Below, piece after piece: positions 16,616 through 28,271 of a stretch of DNA of 64,000 nucleotides (the first letter of the stretch is position 1; each line of letters starts with the position of its first letter). The notes beneath the pieces are model-generated. The model had not been told where the DNA came from. It worked only from the letters and a program-made list of their open reading frames with translations, and ran no database searches. This DNA comes from an uncultured Lentisphaerota bacterium (lineage in GTDB: Bacteria > Verrucomicrobiota > Lentisphaeria > Victivallales > UBA1829). The stretch covers positions 1 to 64,000 of the forward strand of contig ONQZ01000031.1 in NCBI GenBank assembly GCA_900320095.1, read 5' to 3'. The position numbers and the translations under genes are program-made.

Positions 16616-17251
16616 ATGACTGAAGCTGCCATACCCCAATACCAATACACGCAGGCGGAGGACATCTGCAACTCCGTCACGCATGTCATCGGCGCCCTCC
16701 TCACGATCTACGGCACGTACTGCCTGGTCGACATTTCGATCATGCCGTCGTTCGTCGTCTGCGCCCTGATCTACGGCGTTTCCGTTTTCACCATGTTCCT
16801 GGTGTCCTCCGTGTACCACGCCATCCGCGACCAGGATGTGAAGGGCTTCGTCCGCAAGGCGGACCACGCCGTGATCTATTTCACGATTGCCGGGACCTAC
16901 GTGCCGATCCTGAACGCCATCGCGTCGCCGCGCGCGGGACTGGTCTGGTACTGTGTGCTCGGCGCGTGTGCTCTGGCGGGCGGCGTTTTCTCCTTCATCA
17001 CGCTCAAACACAAATACGTTACCACGGTCATCTACCTGGTCATGGGCTGGGCGTCGCTCCTGCTCCTGAAGGACCTCTGGAACATGGCGGAGCCGAAGGT
17101 CGCGTATCTGCTGATCGGCGGCGGCGCGGCGTATTCCGTCGGCGCGGTGCTGTACCTCATCAAGAAGCCGTTCGTGCATACCGTCTTCCACCTCTTCGTC
17201 CTTGCCGGCGTGATCCTCCAGTACCTCTCGATCAAACTGCTGTATTCGTGA
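16616..17251 (+). CDS. Hemolysin III/PAQR-family membrane protein
   Basis: A 211-residue protein with seven predicted membrane helices. The family landmarks are present: NSVTHVIGA near the start, SSVYHAI, DHAVIYFTIAGTYVP and HTVFHLFVLAG near the end. The conserved Ser, Asp and His residues in these blocks are the putative zinc ligands of PAQR-type hydrolases. Bacterial members are often labelled hemolysin III, but a role in membrane lipid homeostasis is better supported by the eukaryotic relatives. It lies 30 bp after the YbbR gene. Confidence 0.88.
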   Translation: MTEAAIPQYQYTQAEDICNSVTHVIGALLTIYGTYCLVDISIMPSFVVCALIYGVSVFTMFLVSSVYHAIRDQDVKGFVRKADHAVIYFTIAGTYVPILNAIASPRAGLVWYCVLGACALAGGVFSFITLKHKYVTTVIYLVMGWASLLLLKDLWNMAEPKVAYLLIGGGAAYSVGAVLYLIKKPFVHTVFHLFVLAGVILQYLSIKLLYS

Positions 17252-17378
17252 TTCGGGCTCCAATAGCCGTCAAAACAAGATAGTCAGAACTATGATGGGC
17301 GCACGGCAAGCCGATTGCGTCTTGCTCTCATTCCGCTCCTATGACAGGCGATTTGCATTTTCTCGCTTCTTTTGTAGG

Positions 17379-17455
17379 TTGACAAAAACAAAATCCAATT
17401 TTATGTAATCTTTTACTTGCTTTTGAATGAAAATGCAGTATATTATCATGCATTT
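17379..17455 (+). promoter_or_regulatory. Two tandem promoters and an operator-like palindrome for the RelB/PIN pair
   Basis: An upstream promoter reads TTGACA (17379-17384) with TATGTA 17 bp later. A second reads TTGCTT (17417-17422) with TATATT (17439-17444), 16-bp spacer. A 7-bp inverted repeat AAATGCA (17431-17437) / TGCATTT (17449-17455) brackets the second -10 box, where an antitoxin repressor could bind. The remainder of 17,252-17,378 shows no gene. Confidence 0.55.
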
Positions 17456-17488
17456 GAGAGAAAACAACCTTTTACCTGGGAGCGTATC

Positions 17489-17782
17489 ATGGCAAATACA
17501 TTAGTGCAATTCCGGATTGATGATACTCTGCGGCAGCAGGCGAATGAGCTGTGCGTGAAACTGGGGCTGGACCTTTCAACCTATTTGCGCATGAGTCTCA
17601 CCAGACTGGTTCAGGAGCAGGGGGTGCCGTTTGCCCTGAAACTGAACACAGTCCCAACTTCGGCAGAAGCGATTGCAGCGATGCGGAAGATATCCGCCAT
17701 CTCGCAGGAGAACGGTACCTCGAAGATGACGTTGGCTGAGATCAATGCCGAAATATCCGCGGTGAGGAAACGCCGGAAATGA
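17489..17782 (+). CDS. RelB/DinJ-family antitoxin
   Basis: A 97-residue protein with the ribbon-helix-helix N-terminus of RelB/DinJ antitoxins (VQFRIDDTLRQQANELCVKLGLDLSTYLRMSL). The C-terminal part is charged and helical, as expected for a toxin-wrapping tail. The ATG at 17,489 follows a GGGAG ribosome site and overlaps the PIN gene by 4 bp at its 3' end. By analogy it represses its own promoter; a 7-bp inverted repeat over the -10 box is a likely operator. RelB-type antitoxins usually pair with RelE-type toxins; here the partner is a PIN nuclease. Confidence 0.85.
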   Translation: MANTLVQFRIDDTLRQQANELCVKLGLDLSTYLRMSLTRLVQEQGVPFALKLNTVPTSAEAIAAMRKISAISQENGTSKMTLAEINAEISAVRKRRK

Positions 17783-18201
17783 TCTATGCGGCCGTTGATA
17801 CCAATGTGTTGGTCTCCGCTCTGCTGAATTCCGAATCCAACCCCGGTCAGGTCCTGCTTTCTGTGTTCAACGGGGAGACCGTTCTCCTGGTGAACGAAGA
17901 AATCCTTGCCGAATATCGCGAAGTCCTCGCGCGGAAAAAGTTTCGCTTCCCACCCGATCTGGTTGATATTGTCCTGAGCAGACTTGCGGCATGCAGCCTG
18001 AACATTTCAGTTGCTTCTGCGAATTTCCCGGAGGTCACTGATCCGAAGGACCGCTGCTTTTATGCTGTGACTATGTCGGAGAGGCAAACAGAGGATGCCC
18101 TGCTTGTCACAGGAAACATACGCCATTTTCCGGTCAAACCGTTTGTCGTGACACCGGCACGGTTTGTTGAAATCCTTCGGGCCGACAGGCAACGGCAGTA
18201 A
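17779..18201 (+). CDS. PIN-domain toxin (putative ribonuclease)
   Basis: A 140-residue PIN protein of the COG1569 type. Acidic active-site residues are in the expected places: D7 in VDTNVLVSAL, a glutamate in NEEILAEY and an aspartate in TDPKDRCFYA. The C-terminus contains LLVTGNIRHFP, also typical. It should cleave RNA when freed from the antitoxin, and it overlaps the antitoxin gene by 4 bp. GC content here and in the antitoxin is lower than in neighbouring genes, consistent with acquisition. Downstream lies the convergent GTPase-locus membrane gene, only 31 bp away. Confidence 0.87.
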   Translation: MIYAAVDTNVLVSALLNSESNPGQVLLSVFNGETVLLVNEEILAEYREVLARKKFRFPPDLVDIVLSRLAACSLNISVASANFPEVTDPKDRCFYAVTMSERQTEDALLVTGNIRHFPVKPFVVTPARFVEILRADRQRQ

Positions 18202-18232
18202 GCCGAGTGAAAGGGAATCGGCGGGTGTCGAA

Positions 18233-18320
18233 TTACTTTCCCTGTTCTTCCGCCTTGGCTTCGTTCCAGAGTTCGTCGAGGCGTTCCATGGAGGTGCCGT
18301 CGACGGTCTTCCCCCCGGCG
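18233..18320 (-). repeat. Copy of the mazG 3' end (left copy)
   Basis: About 88 bp that align without gaps to 20,696-20,783, the true end of mazG, in the same orientation and the same reading frame. Most differences fall at third codon positions. The two copies bracket the GTPase/membrane-protein pair. Confidence 0.85.
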
Positions 18321-19009
18321 GTATCCTTTTCTCCTGCCTTGGTTCCGTCCGGCTGTTCGTTGTTCTTTTCGTTATCCGTTTGATCAGAACTTTCTTTGTG
18401 CTGGAAACGGTAAGCCATTCCTGCCATGCCGGCGATGAATAACAGCAAAACGATCCACAACAGGATGCTTTTATGGCTTTTTTCCTGCTGAAAGATTCCT
18501 TTTTTTGCGTTTGAATTGACCGGATTATCGTCGGGCAGAAGAACATTTGTTATTATACAGGGGTGCTCGGCAGTTGGCAAATCCTCTGAATCCAGTTCAA
18601 AATGGATGTTACATTCGTTTATTTCCTCCGACTCTAAATCATATCTTTCCAAATAGGCTTCTCTGATCCTGTCCATGAGCGCGGGCCCCCAGGAAAGAAG
18701 GGCAAACTCCTCCTGCTGATTCTGATCTTCACAGAGTATTAACAACTCGTGTGGAATCCTTCGTCCTGCCCTGTCGGAGATGTTTTTTTTATCGTCATAG
18801 CATCTGCATGCTATATAATACACTTTCCGGTTGCCCGAGGAAAGAAAACCTTTCCAATATCCGAAGTAGTCCTCATCGGTTAAAAAGACTTTTTTGTAGA
18901 TATTATCAGCAGAGGAGAACCCTAGAGGTCTAGATAAAAACTGGAACCCCCAGGATTTTCCCCTGGTAAACCAAAGGAAGGTATTGTTGTCGACTGTTAA
19001 TATGGACAC
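18233..19009 (-). CDS. Single-span membrane protein of unknown function with a MazG-derived tail
   Basis: A 258-residue protein I do not recognise. Residues 1-180 form a soluble domain rich in aromatic and acidic residues, one membrane helix spans 181-200 (SILLWIVLLLFIAGMAGMAY), and a polar low-complexity linker follows. The last 27 residues (GGKTVDGTSMERLDELWNEA...) match the last 27 of MazG encoded at 20,696-21,481 except for four positions. The DNA is also similar, so this tail was copied from mazG. The gene follows the GTPase by 24 bp on the same strand and is probably its partner, perhaps anchoring it at the membrane. Codon use is more AT-rich than in the flanking genes. Confidence 0.7.
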   Translation of the reverse strand: MSILTVDNNTFLWFTRGKSWGFQFLSRPLGFSSADNIYKKVFLTDEDYFGYWKGFLSSGNRKVYYIACRCYDDKKNISDRAGRRIPHELLILCEDQNQQEEFALLSWGPALMDRIREAYLERYDLESEEINECNIHFELDSEDLPTAEHPCIITNVLLPDDNPVNSNAKKGIFQQEKSHKSILLWIVLLLFIAGMAGMAYRFQHKESSDQTDNEKNNEQPDGTKAGEKDTAGGKTVDGTSMERLDELWNEAKAEEQGK

Positions 19010-19033
19010 AATGGATCCTTTGTTGTTTTGAAG

Positions 19034-20203
19034 TTATTCGTTATCAGCGAGGTATGTATTTCTGATTCCGACCTTGTTCATTTTTTCTTCAAAAGCGATC
19101 ATCACGGCGTCAATATAATCGCCTTTTTTGATGGCTTCTTCCTTTGCTTTGCCCAAGTTCACGACATTCTTCTTCGTCATGTCGTCGATAAGTCCGAAGT
19201 AATAGCCGACAATCGGGACCCATTTCAACCATCCGGTCGTTAATCTCCTGATGATTTCCAAGACTTTTCCTGCTGTCGCTATCGTCTGGGCCTTTTTCTC
19301 CGCCCACCATAAAGCTCTTTTTACAGGAACAGTAAATGCGATCGGGGCTATTAGATCGACACCTTTCTGTTTCGTTATATCTTTAATAGTTGTATTGCTT
19401 TCATCATATTCCGCCACAGAAAGGAGAAGATAATCATTTCCGAGGTTGAAGAACTCCGGTTCTTCAATGATCTCTTTGATTTCCCGTTTCAGTTCCTGTA
19501 TTTCGTCGTATACGGAATGGATAATGCGTTTTCTGAACATTTCAGCTGTCATGTCCGGAAGAAGATCTGCTTTGGTCAGACAAATGGTCCAGATACGCGG
19601 GAAATGCGCGAGCGGGGTCTTTTCATGCAGGAACGGAGCTTCTTTAAGACGGATGATTTCATCCTTGAAATGAGCGAACAGCCCCTTAAGATATCTGTCG
19701 CCATTTTCCTTTAACATCGCCCCGTCAACGAGAAACAGTGCGATGTCGGATGATAAAAGGGAGAGGAACGTCTTTTCCTTGTCCGCCTGCACTTCCCCCG
19801 ATTGCGATTTACACCACCATTCTCCAGGATAATCGTGCCAGACCAGTCTCCCGACATTTTTCGGGATTTCGTCAAGACGGATGTTGAAGCGGTATTCTCT
19901 TGAGGTCATCCTCGTTTGGAGGACCTGTTGTTCCATGATCTTGAAATAGGCGCTGAGCAGTGTCTGTCCTTGTGTTGTATCTTCCGCCACAAGACGGTAG
20001 CCTGCTTCCTTTTGGAATTTTAGTTCCTGCTGGTATCCGTAGAAACAGGTTAAAAGTGTCGTCTTCCCGCTGCCGTCTTCTCCAAACAGGGCGATGTGCT
20101 GTTCAAACTCCGGTCGATAGCCCGCGATTTTTCGCTTGACGGTCAGATACAGGTTTCGAAAAAAACCATCTTCGATTTGAGTTTGTTTCTTTTCCTCGGA
20201 CAT
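19034..20203 (-). CDS. TRAFAC-like GTPase of unknown role
   Basis: A 389-residue P-loop NTPase. The Walker A loop is GEDGSGKT (residues 41-48), Walker B reads WHDYPGE (D124, G127) and the base-specificity motif is TKAD (210-213), all of which point to GTP. The C-terminal third (about 300-365) has hydrophobic stretches near KWVPIVGYYFGLIDD that may touch the membrane. The start is chosen at MSEEKK because of a perfect ribosome site (AAGGAG) 6 bp upstream. It precedes the membrane-protein gene by 24 bp. Similar GTPase-plus-membrane pairs occur in presumed conflict or defence loci, but nothing here proves that role. Its transcript seems to start some 330 nt upstream in a structured leader. Confidence 0.75.
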   Translation of the reverse strand: MSEEKKQTQIEDGFFRNLYLTVKRKIAGYRPEFEQHIALFGEDGSGKTTLLTCFYGYQQELKFQKEAGYRLVAEDTTQGQTLLSAYFKIMEQQVLQTRMTSREYRFNIRLDEIPKNVGRLVWHDYPGEWWCKSQSGEVQADKEKTFLSLLSSDIALFLVDGAMLKENGDRYLKGLFAHFKDEIIRLKEAPFLHEKTPLAHFPRIWTICLTKADLLPDMTAEMFRKRIIHSVYDEIQELKREIKEIIEEPEFFNLGNDYLLLSVAEYDESNTTIKDITKQKGVDLIAPIAFTVPVKRALWWAEKKAQTIATAGKVLEIIRRLTTGWLKWVPIVGYYFGLIDDMTKKNVVNLGKAKEEAIKKGDYIDAVMIAFEEKMNKVGIRNTYLADNE

Positions 20204-20327
20204 AGATGTCTCCTTAAAAAGTGAGGGGGTGGATAGTGAGCCGGTCGCAGGGCAAAAGAAATCCAAATGGGGTGGAGGACATCCGTGCAGATATGAAAAA
20301 AGCCGAACGCTAAATCATTAACTACAC

Positions 20328-20468
20328 TGCACCGTAGGTCCAGCCAGAACCTGCTCACATTATGTAACAACGAAGAAACGTCCGGCAGACTGTGAAGACA
20401 CAATTCGCCCGGGCACAATTCATCTGTAATGTGAGCAAATACTGAGAAACTGGCTGGTTTACGGTGCA
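20328..20468 (-). other. Nested inverted repeats in the GTPase leader
   Basis: An outer stem pairs 20,328-20,336 with 20,460-20,468 and 20,340-20,347 with 20,450-20,457 (17 pairs with a small bulge). An inner 10-bp perfect stem pairs 20,353-20,362 with 20,427-20,436. Smaller palindromes lie inside (GCCCGGGC at 20,407-20,414). The element falls within the predicted 5' leader of the GTPase transcript. It could be a cis-regulatory RNA, a small RNA or a remnant of a small mobile palindrome. The rest of 20,204-20,695 is AT-rich and shows no gene. Confidence 0.55.
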
Positions 20469-20537
20469 TTTGCTGATTGCAATCGGTTTTCAAGGAACAG
20501 CCGCCTTTCGCGGCAGTTAAAGATACTTTATCACGCT

Positions 20538-20566
20538 ATTATAAAAAATCAAGCCGTATTTTTAAA
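20538..20566 (-). promoter_or_regulatory. Candidate promoter for the GTPase pair
   Basis: On the minus strand, TTTAAA (20561-20566) and TATAAT (20538-20543) have a 17-bp spacer. Transcription would begin near 20,531, leaving a leader of about 330 nt. Confidence 0.5.
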
Positions 20567-20695
20567 AAACATTATGTTTTTGATATCGTTTTTCTTTCAT
20601 TTCAGATTGTATGGATGGCTTTTGAGGCATAAAAAATATCCGGGTCTGCGGAAAGCAGATGACCGGACGCTGTTTTTATCTGAAAAATGCTGGGT

Positions 20696-20783
20696 TTATT
20701 TTTCCGGTTCCTCGGCCTTGGCTTCGTTCCAGAGTTCGTCGAGACGCTCCATGGGGGTGCCGTCGACGGTCTTCCCCTCGGCG
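20696..20783 (-). repeat. mazG 3' end (right, parental copy)
   Basis: The genuine last 29 codons of mazG, matched by 18,233-18,320. See the left copy. Confidence 0.85.
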
Positions 20784-21481
20784 GCGAGCTTCGACTCCAC
20801 GGCGCGGTAACGGCGGTCGAACTTGTCGGAGGCGCGGTTCACGACCTCCTCGCAGTTTTCGCCGCGGAACCGGAGGAAATTGACGACGGCGAATACGAGG
20901 TCGGCGGCCTCGTCGTTGACGCGGTCGCGGCTGCCCGACTTGTACGCCTCCTCCAGCTCCGCCATCTCCTCGCGGACCTTCGCGAGGATGTCGGCGTCGT
21001 TGGTCCAGTCGAATCCGTGCTTGGCGGCTTTCTTCTGGAGCTTCTCGGCGCGGAGCACGGCGGGGAGGTTGCGCGGCACGCCGTCGAGCGCGGACTTGCG
21101 GTAGTCGTCGTGCTCGGTCTTCTTGATCTTCTCCCAGTTCACGAGCACCTGCGCGGAGTTGTCCACATGGACGTCGCCGAAGACGTGCGGATGGCGGCGG
21201 ATCATCTTGTCGGAGATGCCGCGCGCGACGTCCTCCAGCGTGAACGCGCCGCGTTCCTCCGCCATGACGCTGTTCATGACGACCTGCATGAGGAGGTCGC
21301 CCAGCTCCTCGCACATCTCCGCGTCGGACTTGTGGTCGACGGCGTCGAGGTATTCTGCGGCCTCGCCGACGAGGCATTTCTTGAGGGATTCGTGGGTCTG
21401 CTCGCGGTCCCAGGGGCATCCGTCGGGCGCGCGCAGACGGCGCATGACGTTCACGAGGCGTTCAAGTTCGGACATGTCCAT
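20696..21481 (-). CDS. mazG: Nucleoside triphosphate pyrophosphohydrolase MazG
   Basis: A 261-residue enzyme with two MazG domains, of normal full length. It hydrolyses NTPs to NMP and pyrophosphate and so cleans up abnormal nucleotides or lowers ppGpp precursors. The first domain has CPWDREQTHESL and the acidic cluster EAAEYLDA...EELGDLLMQVV. The second has EEMAELEEAYKSG...DEAADLVFAVVN. The C-terminal tail (PMERLDELWNEAKAEE) is the usual MazG ending, which identifies this copy as the source of the tail repeated at 18.2 kb. The start ATG lies 5 bp after the ppk1 stop, making it the last gene of argG-ppk1-mazG. Confidence 0.94.
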   Translation of the reverse strand: MDMSELERLVNVMRRLRAPDGCPWDREQTHESLKKCLVGEAAEYLDAVDHKSDAEMCEELGDLLMQVVMNSVMAEERGAFTLEDVARGISDKMIRRHPHVFGDVHVDNSAQVLVNWEKIKKTEHDDYRKSALDGVPRNLPAVLRAEKLQKKAAKHGFDWTNDADILAKVREEMAELEEAYKSGSRDRVNDEAADLVFAVVNFLRFRGENCEEVVNRASDKFDRRYRAVESKLAAEGKTVDGTPMERLDELWNEAKAEEPEK

Positions 21482-25199: not shown

Positions 25200-28100
25200 C
25201 TAACGCTCCGGCACATTTGTCCTGCCGCTTACGCGATCACGGTCCAGTTCATGTCGACGCCGCGCCTTCGCATCGCCGTTGTAGTCGCCCGCGCCGACCA
25301 CGAACCAGTCGGACGCGTTGAGCTGGCCGAGCTGCATCCAGCTCGTGACCGAGTTGACGCCATCGATCCACATGGCCACGATGCCGGTTTCGGCGTGGAA
25401 TGCGACGATGTCGTCCTTGCCGTCGCCCGCGAAGTCGCCGATGGCGCGGACTTCCCATCCGCTGTCGGACACGCCGAGGCTGGTCCACGTGCCGCCGATG
25501 TCGATCGCGTGGTATTCCGCGCCGGAATTGTGCGACATCACGACCTGGTCCTTGCCGTCGCCGTTGAAGTCGCCGCAGCCGATGAGCGTCCAGGTCGCGT
25601 CGAATCCGCTGCCCATGCTCACCCAGTTCTCGGTGCCGTCGGTCCACACGCCGAGCGCTCCGAGTTGGTACGTATACCACACGATCGAATTCCTGCCGGC
25701 GTTTCCGGTCAGATTTCCGACCGTGTTCTTCCAGTCGATGTTGTCCTCATACGCGCCGTGGATGCCCGCCTCGCTGGTGACGTTGCCGAACAGGACCGAA
25801 TCCGCCTTGCCGTTCGCATTCATGTCGTGGCAGCCGAGGTTGTCCCATTCGGCGGGATGATTGCTGTTGGCTGACTGCCAGGTGTTCGTGCCGTTCATCC
25901 AGTAGCCGTGAGCATAGTTGTTTCCCGTCCAGACGAACATGACATCGCTGATGCCGTTGCCGTCGATGTCGCTCTTCGCGGACCCGGCCGGTGCCGCCGC
26001 GCCGACCGTGACGGAGAGGACGCTGTCGCTGTCGAGGTCGAGCCTGTAGTTCACGCCGCCGATGTTCGTTGTCTGACCGACCTTGAGCGTGCCGAAGGCG
26101 TCGCCGTAGATATTCTGGACGGTGATGGTCTCGTTGAATCCGGACGCGTTGTCCGCCAGCTTGTAGGTGCCCTTCGTCTGGGACGCGCTGACCGTGAGCG
26201 TGAAGGTCACGCCCTTGTTCTTCGCGTAGTAGAGGTTCTGCAGGACAGGCTTCGTGCTGCCCGCGCTCGTATTGAAGATGTTGATGTCCGCGATGCCGCC
26301 GGAGGAGAACGTGATCCCGTAGCAGTCGTAATATCCGGTGACCTTGCCGCCGGCCTTGACGTCGAAGAAGTTGAGCAGCGCGCCGCTGGATACCTTCATC
26401 ACGCCGCCGCTTCCGACCGTGCAGCTGAGCGCGATCGCGCTGTTGTTCAGCGTCACGCTGCCGCCCTGGCTGATCGCGGTTTTGAGGAACGATCCGCCGG
26501 AGTACACGTCGACCGTGCCGTTGTACACGGTGCATCCGCCGGCGACACCGTATGCGGAAACGGCCAGCCAGCCGCCGCTGCTCACGCTCAGCCCGGTCGC
26601 ACTCCCGCCGTAGCTGACGACCGCCGATCCGTAAACATTGCCGGAACCGGCCGACCCGCCGCTGTTCACGCTCAGAATCCCGCCTCTCTGGACGTAGGCG
26701 CTGCCGAGTTTGCCCTGGTTCAGGTTGATGCGGCCGCCGGAGCTGATCGTGGCGGTCCCCACACTGCCTCCGCTGGAGACCTGCAGGGGACACCCGGAAC
26801 CGACGTTCGCGGAGAAGATCGTGCCGTTCACCACGCCGAGTGCGCCGGAGCTGAAATAGGCTACGGTCGCTGTGCCCCCGGACCCGACCTCGAGATTGCC
26901 GCCTCCGACGAACGCGGTACCGAGCTTGCCGCCGCTGGAGACGCCGATCGTGGCGCTGCCCGACCCGCCGGAATTCGGTATGATCCACCCGCTGATTACG
27001 GAACCGCCGGACATGATCCCCAGGTGGGCGTTCGGGTGGACGAAGACTTCCGTCGCCGTCGTGCCGGAGAAAACGTACATCTTTCCCATCGTGCCCGAGA
27101 GCGGCTGGACCGTCGCCGAGCTCATCACGCCGCCGCCGGAGGCGAAGAACACGCCGCCGGAAATCAACGCCTTCGCTCCGTTCACGCCCGACACGTCGGC
27201 GTTGCCGCCATTGAGGTCGAATACCGCGTTCGAGACCGTTTTCCCGCCGAACCGGCCGCCGAAGATGATGATTTTGCATCCGCTGCCGACCGTGCCGCCG
27301 TACACGACGCCGCTCCCGCTGCCGCTGCTAAAGACGAATGTGGATGCGTTGGAAAAGACTTCGTTGTACGAGTAGCCGCCGGATCCGATCGAGACCACGC
27401 CCCCGTAATACTTGCCGTCGGTGCTGGAGCCTTGCAGGGACACTGCCCCGCCCGACATCACGGTCCCGGACGCAAAGCCGCCGCTGAGGACTTTTAAGGT
27501 GCCGCCAGCGGACAGCGTGGTCTTGAGCGCGGTCCCGCCGCTGGAAACATTCATCGTGGCGCTGCGGGAGAGGTAGCTCATGGAAACGATCCCGTTGTTC
27601 CAGACATCCACGCGTCCGCCGCTTGAGATGTAATTGCTTCCCGCGTATCCGCCGCTGTAGAGGTTCATGGACGCGCCGGAGTTGATTGTGTTGGAGATGG
27701 CGGTTCCGCCGGATGCGATCGTCATCTTCCCGGAGCTGTATACGCTGGTATTGTAGGCATATCCGCCTTTGTCGATATACAGGGATGCGCCGGACGATAC
27801 TTTGGTGGCGTTGGCATCTGCGGAATACACAGCCATATAGGCTCCTTTATATTTCACATCAATGCCGCGCGCATAGCCTCGATAAAACGAGTCTCCGCTT
27901 ACAATCAGCTTGGCATCACTCCTTAATTCAAAATCGTATACATTTCCCCCGGAAACACGCACGATCCCACCCGAGGAAGCGGTGCCGCGACTTAATGTCG
28001 ATCCCTCCCGGAAGGAAACATCGGCGCCACTTTCAAAATAGCCATATGTTACGTGTCCCCCCAATAAAACAACCAATTGCGTGCCGGAATCGAAGAAGTC

Positions 28101-28271
28101 TGCATCCAAGTAACCGCCGCTGCTGACATAAACACTCGCGCCGGAACTTACCAGAGCTCTGACGCTCCCGCCGGATTCCACGATCATGATCGCCTGATCG
28201 CTGATGTGGTAAACGTCGCTCGTGTATTTGCTGATGGTGTTAATTCCCCAGGAAAGATAAACCTGCGCCAT
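25200..28271 (-). CDS. AIDA-like/FG-GAP repeat protein, probable type I secretion cargo, C-terminus frameshifted
   Basis: A 1,023-residue protein. Residues 1 to about 720 are a run of degenerate repeats of about 20 residues, built on SSGG/SGGS turns, predicting a long beta-solenoid. After a linker, FG-GAP/VCBS-like blades with calcium-loop motifs follow (DIDGNGISD, DMNANGKAD, DFNGDGKDQ, DYNGDAKA). There is no signal peptide, and HlyD and ABC exporter genes follow on the same strand upstream of it in map order, which suggests type I secretion. The last 20 residues are out of frame. The original ending GVDMNWTVIA survives in another frame, and about 28 residues present in the paralogue at 2-112 are missing near 25,260. 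The ATG has an AAAGGA ribosome site. Confidence 0.82.
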   Translation of the reverse strand: MAQVYLSWGINTISKYTSDVYHISDQAIMIVESGGSVRALVSSGASVYVSSGGYLDADFFDSGTQLVVLLGGHVTYGYFESGADVSFREGSTLSRGTASSGGIVRVSGGNVYDFELRSDAKLIVSGDSFYRGYARGIDVKYKGAYMAVYSADANATKVSSGASLYIDKGGYAYNTSVYSSGKMTIASGGTAISNTINSGASMNLYSGGYAGSNYISSGGRVDVWNNGIVSMSYLSRSATMNVSSGGTALKTTLSAGGTLKVLSGGFASGTVMSGGAVSLQGSSTDGKYYGGVVSIGSGGYSYNEVFSNASTFVFSSGSGSGVVYGGTVGSGCKIIIFGGRFGGKTVSNAVFDLNGGNADVSGVNGAKALISGGVFFASGGGVMSSATVQPLSGTMGKMYVFSGTTATEVFVHPNAHLGIMSGGSVISGWIIPNSGGSGSATIGVSSGGKLGTAFVGGGNLEVGSGGTATVAYFSSGALGVVNGTIFSANVGSGCPLQVSSGGSVGTATISSGGRINLNQGKLGSAYVQRGGILSVNSGGSAGSGNVYGSAVVSYGGSATGLSVSSGGWLAVSAYGVAGGCTVYNGTVDVYSGGSFLKTAISQGGSVTLNNSAIALSCTVGSGGVMKVSSGALLNFFDVKAGGKVTGYYDCYGITFSSGGIADINIFNTSAGSTKPVLQNLYYAKNKGVTFTLTVSASQTKGTYKLADNASGFNETITVQNIYGDAFGTLKVGQTTNIGGVNYRLDLDSDSVLSVTVGAAAPAGSAKSDIDGNGISDVMFVWTGNNYAHGYWMNGTNTWQSANSNHPAEWDNLGCHDMNANGKADSVLFGNVTSEAGIHGAYEDNIDWKNTVGNLTGNAGRNSIVWYTYQLGALGVWTDGTENWVSMGSGFDATWTLIGCGDFNGDGKDQVVMSHNSGAEYHAIDIGGTWTSLGVSDSGWEVRAIGDFAGDGKDDIVAFHAETGIVAMWIDGVNSVTSWMQLGQLNASDWFVVGAGDYNGDAKARRRHELDRDRVSGRTNVPER

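Follow-up and report, generated by a model that had tools for sequence, protein, structure and literature searches.

An RNA-bearing gene pair at the 3' end of mazG in an uncultured Lentisphaerota bacterium as a candidate integrase-less cargo cassette

Introduction

Several described systems resemble one or another part of the locus reported here. R-M genes of Helicobacter pylori have been reported to insert with a long target duplication (Nobusato et al. 2000, as cited in PMC3031569 and PMC1643837). DO-GTPase/GAP1 conflict systems, in which GAP1 is a three-domain protein, were described by Kaur et al. (2020, PMC7159879). With regard to RNA, Lentisphaerae are the source of a structured RNA named Acido-Lenti-1 (RF01687; PMC2864571).

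The window, that is, the whole stretch of 64,000 nucleotides that was analysed, comes from an uncultured Lentisphaerota bacterium and contains two genes and a structured RNA enclosed by two copies of the mazG 3' end. An earlier, sequence-only reading had seen here the layout expected of an element that enters a gene at its 3' end and rebuilds that end, with selection keeping both gene-end copies; the first of these ideas has gained support from other genomes, and the second has not. We propose, with a probability of about 0.6, that an integrase-less cassette with cargo genes is integrated in the window at the 3' end of mazG.

The repeat of the mazG 3' end

The putative target gene, mazG (20,696-21,475, minus strand), codes for a nucleoside triphosphate pyrophosphohydrolase (TIGR00444, 280 bits; PF03819). 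As the sequence-only reading had noticed, its end (20,696-20,784, minus strand) recurs at 18,233-18,321 on the same strand and in the same reading frame, the two copies sharing 90% identity over 89 nt. The genome (2.75 Mb) has just these two significant copies, the second with an E-value of 9e-29. The proximal, attL-like copy is the normal C-terminus of MazG, TIGR00444 being matched through its last position and E. coli MazG (3cra) aligning with the window protein up to query residue 256. The distal, attR-like copy is the in-frame, present-day C-terminus of a membrane protein (cargo gene 2; 18,233-19,009, minus strand), which had been thought unrelated to MazG. Homologues of the membrane protein in other genera were checked for a native C-terminus of the same kind, which would have spoken against the sequence-only reading, and those located away from mazG lack the tail. 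The two closest belong to a different genus of the family and to a different family of the class; both are encoded next to the same GTPase, at a place other than mazG, and have different C-terminal ends. The duplicated end is thus native to MazG and, being absent from the homologues in other genera, foreign to the membrane protein. The enclosed cargo is also more AT-rich, as first suspected, with GC contents of 0.455 for the GTPase gene and 0.436 for the membrane-protein gene, against 0.651 for mazG.

The two tails differ at 10 positions over 29 codons. These differences had been described as lying mostly at third codon positions, and this bias had been taken as a sign of selection. Only five of the ten are third-position differences, and the argument was dropped after the changes had been polarised against the genus consensus: all six changes in the distal tail are non-synonymous, which leaves selection on both tails unsupported, and four of the seven in mazG's own tail are synonymous. 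In the proximal tail, the departures from the consensus are all in the 3' part, and the rare bases of the distal tail are mostly in the 5' part. This pattern, which rests on 11 sites, fits one reciprocal crossover (Fisher 0.024, permutation 0.049) and weakly suggests that the two tails in the window exchanged their ends in this way. A tail rebuilt from the proximal 5' part and the distal 3' part is closer to the congeners than either actual tail, with five differences from G012. The earlier impression of third-position differences may be due to this crossover pattern, so that selection on the tail of the membrane protein need not be invoked. In a tree of the distal tail, a non-sister position is favoured by 3.4 log units, and a sister position with its own mazG is not rejected (AU p = 0.24).

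A structured RNA family at the left edge of accessory genes

Inside the cassette, 92 nt upstream of the GTPase gene, lies a structured RNA of about 198 nt (20,296-20,493, minus strand; fold z -4.6; models R1 and R2), which the sequence-only reading had overlooked. It shows strong covariation and has a terminator-like GCGTTCGGCTTTTTT at its end; a promoter-like TTGATT...TAAAGT, read from the sequence, is located just upstream (20,522-20,553, minus strand). The intergenic region of the cassette matches two further places in the genome, and also congeners. Related RNA loci keep TTGAtTTTT and a downstream TAAATT-like block, and the RNA copies carry this promoter-like block and end in CGTYCGGCTTTTTT.

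A structure of 64 pairs was derived from five RNA copies, and the model detects 54 places in all 13 genomes of the genus, with 1-8 copies per genome. Across 30 distinct RNA sequences, 91.2% of the cells pair, both-sided changes occur in 35 of the 64 pairs and 276 cells are compensatory, compared with about 40% paired and 29-54 compensatory cells in slid controls. The underlying alignment was fitted to the RNA model and includes one reverse-strand match, which biases these counts in favour of the structure. Rfam 15 gave no match at E <= 1 in positions 17,200-20,800 of the window, and in six further loci it gave none that covers the RNA; the family had not been described before. With a wider model, the RNA is detected in 77 of the 198 genomes examined from the class, and the 53 positives in a phylum sample of 388 genomes all belong to this same class.

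Most RNA copies precede accessory genes that are AT-rich and lie on the same strand, so that the RNA forms the left border of genes exchanged between species. The genes that follow code for zinc-ribbon/Sel1 proteins, autotransporter-like repeats, lipoproteins, one methylase-like, one NusG-domain, one PD-(D/E)XK and one radical-SAM protein, and for the GTPase pair in the window. At seven orthologous RNA sites, the left flank is common and the cargo usually different, after which the right flank resumes. The family thus marks places of accessory-gene exchange in a little-studied bacterial class, and merits separate study. In other respects, one copy in G005 (L214:2107-2625) precedes a NusG-domain gene, a hint of a possible antitermination link, and many RNA cassettes are flanked on either side by dispersed palindromic, REP-like repeats (e.g. 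GAACGCGGGACGCGAATGC; L184-L221).

The mazG-hlyIII interval in the genus

The gene order argG-ppk1-mazG-X-hlyIII-ybbR-dacA is kept across the genus and, in the window, the conserved right neighbour of the site is an hlyIII-like membrane protein gene (16,616-17,251, plus strand), identified by the gene order in congeners. In G012, G004, G009 and G010, the mazG-hlyIII interval is empty, X being a stretch of about 100 bp that contains a terminator. X is an FGE/SUMF-like gene in G002 and G011 and a sulfatase-like gene in G003 (both assigned from sequence), and in G008 (L023:4045-5732) it consists of an R-M pair, an EcoRV-type endonuclease and a D12 methylase, placed after mazG, with a 23-27 bp copy of the mazG end at the far junction, followed by a terminator. 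Since the interval is either empty or filled with unrelated cargo among congeners, it is an insertion hotspot. The R-M insertion of G008 was considered as a case of the same element and set apart, being without the RNA. In G002 (L017:4441-4560), the insertion junction cost mazG its stop codon, and the frame continues into the inserted DNA. Farther along the window, a long autotransporter-like protein with SGG repeats is encoded at 25,200-28,271 on the minus strand.

In the window, the proximal copy is followed by a terminator-like hairpin (20,631-20,682, minus strand) of the type present after mazG in G012 and G006, and the proximal tail together with its downstream sequence shares 89% identity over 159 nt with G012 and 85% over 162 nt with G006. 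After the distal copy, the native flank is absent. At its expected place, and abutting the distal copy, stands a convergent pair formed by a RelB-like antitoxin gene (17,489-17,782, plus strand; PF04221) and a PIN-domain toxin-like gene (17,779-18,201, plus strand; PF13470). The expectation that relatives would have mazG directly followed by RelB/PIN, as the ancestral state, was abandoned: no such arrangement was seen in the congeners, where the site is empty or carries other cargo and the PIN homologues are located elsewhere.

These observations could be accommodated by a more local history, in which ordinary recombination brought the GTPase pair into the mazG-hlyIII interval and the membrane-protein gene acquired its mazG end in a separate event, either a tandem duplication or a template switch. 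The native-type terminator after the proximal mazG, the distal copy devoid of its native flank, and the unrelated, RNA-free cargo taken up by this interval in other species are all in keeping with it. Such a history requires two or more events, however, and leaves unexplained the association of RNA, cargo and gene-end copies at valS in three species, described below, and the similar length of the copies at the two genes (86-89 nt); we consider it unlikely.

The same layout at valS

Other RNA loci should show gene-end repeats if that of the window stems from the way in which such cassettes insert, a prediction that was tested. A high-identity repeat of the upstream gene's 3' end beyond the cargo was found at 4 of 40 RNA loci, namely, the window and three congeners at valS. 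None of the 127 pseudo-sites had a repeat of comparable identity, and three gave hits at 62-67% identity. In G009, G001 and G008, valS is followed by the RNA and differing cargo, beyond which the 3' end of valS recurs. The distal copies begin at one base, located 87 nt (G009) or 86 nt (G008) before the gene end, the corresponding length being 89 nt for mazG; that of G001 has the same starting base and an internal deletion. They are preceded by a common right-end sequence, and the native flank that follows is colinear with empty sites, those of G000 and G004 for G009 and that of G005 for G001. On the other side, the sequence behind the proximal valS is an element end common to the three species.

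The valS cargos checked by Pfam comprise Sel1, zinc-ribbon and FGE proteins and one unmatched protein, and no recombinase-like protein was found among their predicted genes. The absence of an integrase reported for the window also holds, the cassette there being made up of the GTPase and its partner only. The valS cassettes thus have an attL/attR geometry without an integrase, and the three cases may share descent from one insertion. An exact search of the loci for the valS-type right-end motif found it absent from the window cassette. Insertion at the 3' end of a gene, with restoration of that gene, had been suggested from mazG alone; it is strengthened by the same layout in three congeners and by the empty sites in other species.

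The valS loci also bear on a second alternative, an illegitimate insertion with long target duplication and no element-borne gene end, as reported for the H. pylori R-M genes in the work cited in PMC3031569 and PMC1643837 (Nobusato 2000). The phenomenon has been published, and the R-M pair after mazG in G008, with its short mazG-end copy at the far junction, could represent it within the genus. At valS, however, the proximal post-stop sequence is common to the elements across species and the distal one is that of the empty site of each species, so that the gene-end copy points to an element-borne origin; this alternative appears less probable still than a local duplication. Finally, it is very unlikely that the RNA is only a fixed cis-regulatory leader of accessory genes (e.g. 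an antitermination element or attenuator) with incidental flanking repeats: its position just upstream of such genes on the same strand, its promoter-like and terminator-like ends and the one copy before a NusG-domain gene would suit this role, but neither the gene-end repeats around RNA and cargo nor the replacement of cargo at fixed sites is accounted for. A leader role and a mobile-cassette role of the RNA are not mutually exclusive.

The GTPase and its partner

Cargo gene 1 (19,034-20,203, minus strand) codes for a DO-GTPase2-like GTPase (PF19993, 36.6 bits for a cut-off of 27) with relatives in other phyla. A search of GTDB genomes led to 80 retained loci (L044-L123), from Lentisphaerae, Desulfobacterota, cyanobacteria and actinobacteria. 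In 77 of them, the next gene codes for a homologue of the N-terminal domain of the membrane protein, and none has the MazG tail. The pair is thus widespread, and was previously unmodelled. Among plasmids, GTPase relatives were found in three Curtobacterium records only, and the viral contigs scanned with the GTPase profile contained none.

The membrane protein harbours the partner domain (about residues 10-130), a single TM helix, a linker and the MazG-derived tail; in its model, the helix spans residues 179-216 and the linker (217-238) is of low confidence. In most actinobacteria, the partner is only about 115 residues long. It carries the motif TRGxxWGFRFL...RxIPHEF. Neither the partner domain nor its homologues have a significant Pfam match, and PADLOC, NCBIfam and Pfam assigned the membrane protein to no family. 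An actinobacterial partner was modelled with a pLDDT of 95, and in PDB searches with the two models (window and actinobacterial) the leading hits were longin and roadblock domains from regulators of GTPases. The matches include NPRL2, NPRL3, FNIP2, VAMP7 and MP1-p14, with a best E-value of 0.009 (probability 0.98) and none below 0.001, values that are suggestive and short of significance. The partner has a probable longin/roadblock fold, which is the fold of small-GTPase regulators.

Four neighbours of GTPase-pair loci were examined and proved to be proteins of R-M or type IV restriction systems, which makes a role of the pair in conflict plausible. In G015 (L026:2324-4212), the pair is located near a phage-type integrase and tRNA-Tyr/tRNA-Gly genes, and the RNA is absent from the locus.

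A model for the cassette

Direct observation covers the repeat, the family of RNAs, the two-gene cargo with its conservation, and the valS sites that match in occupied and empty form, and we can propose from this how an integrase-less cassette would have come to lie at mazG. Its parts would be the RNA of about 200 nt with its promoter-like and terminator-like sequences, forming the constant left side, the GTPase and partner genes, and the last 89 nt or so of mazG. The cassette, probably as a circle, would bear the last part of the gene that it targets and would integrate by a single reciprocal crossover inside this gene-end stretch, by means of a recombinase supplied in trans or of ordinary RecA recombination. 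Such a crossover would preserve the target gene and place a duplicate of its end beyond the cargo. The reading frame of the window cargo would enter this duplicate, giving rise to a membrane protein with a MazG C-terminus, and RelB/PIN, as a later neighbour, would probably have removed the native downstream flank.

More tentatively, and at somewhat less than even odds, small mobile cassettes devoid of a recombinase may exist throughout the class, defined by the RNA of about 200 nt, carrying the 3' end of their target protein gene and swapping cargo at gene ends that stay the same; the RNA would then act in mobility or in cargo control. An 89-bp repeat is in this manner tied to a testable mobility system in a class that has been little studied.

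Comparison with known systems

The Acido-Lenti-1 RNA comes from the same phylum as the window RNA, and the Rfam 15 scans of the window and the six further loci gave no match to it at E <= 1. An integron gene cassette was considered with regard to a long imperfect palindrome, and no array was seen. As in the DO-GTPase/GAP1 systems, the GTPase of the window is a DO-GTPase2 match with a conserved downstream partner, but this partner is only about 115 residues long, belongs to no Pfam family and is longin/roadblock-like, instead of the three-domain GAP1 expected downstream.

The R-M insertions with long target duplication likewise consist of a small gene pair between long direct host repeats, without a recombinase. 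They differ in that the gene-end copy of the cassettes is apparently element-borne, the cassettes are marked by an RNA family, and the window insert is not an R-M pair. With regard to the integrative elements and genomic islands that occupy the 3' ends of tRNA genes and of some protein genes, the window and the three valS cassettes stand apart by the lack of an integrase, the RNA near the left end and a small size of about 2-3 kb, whereas the restored gene, the direct repeat at the far end, the variable cargo and the empty sites in relatives are common to both.
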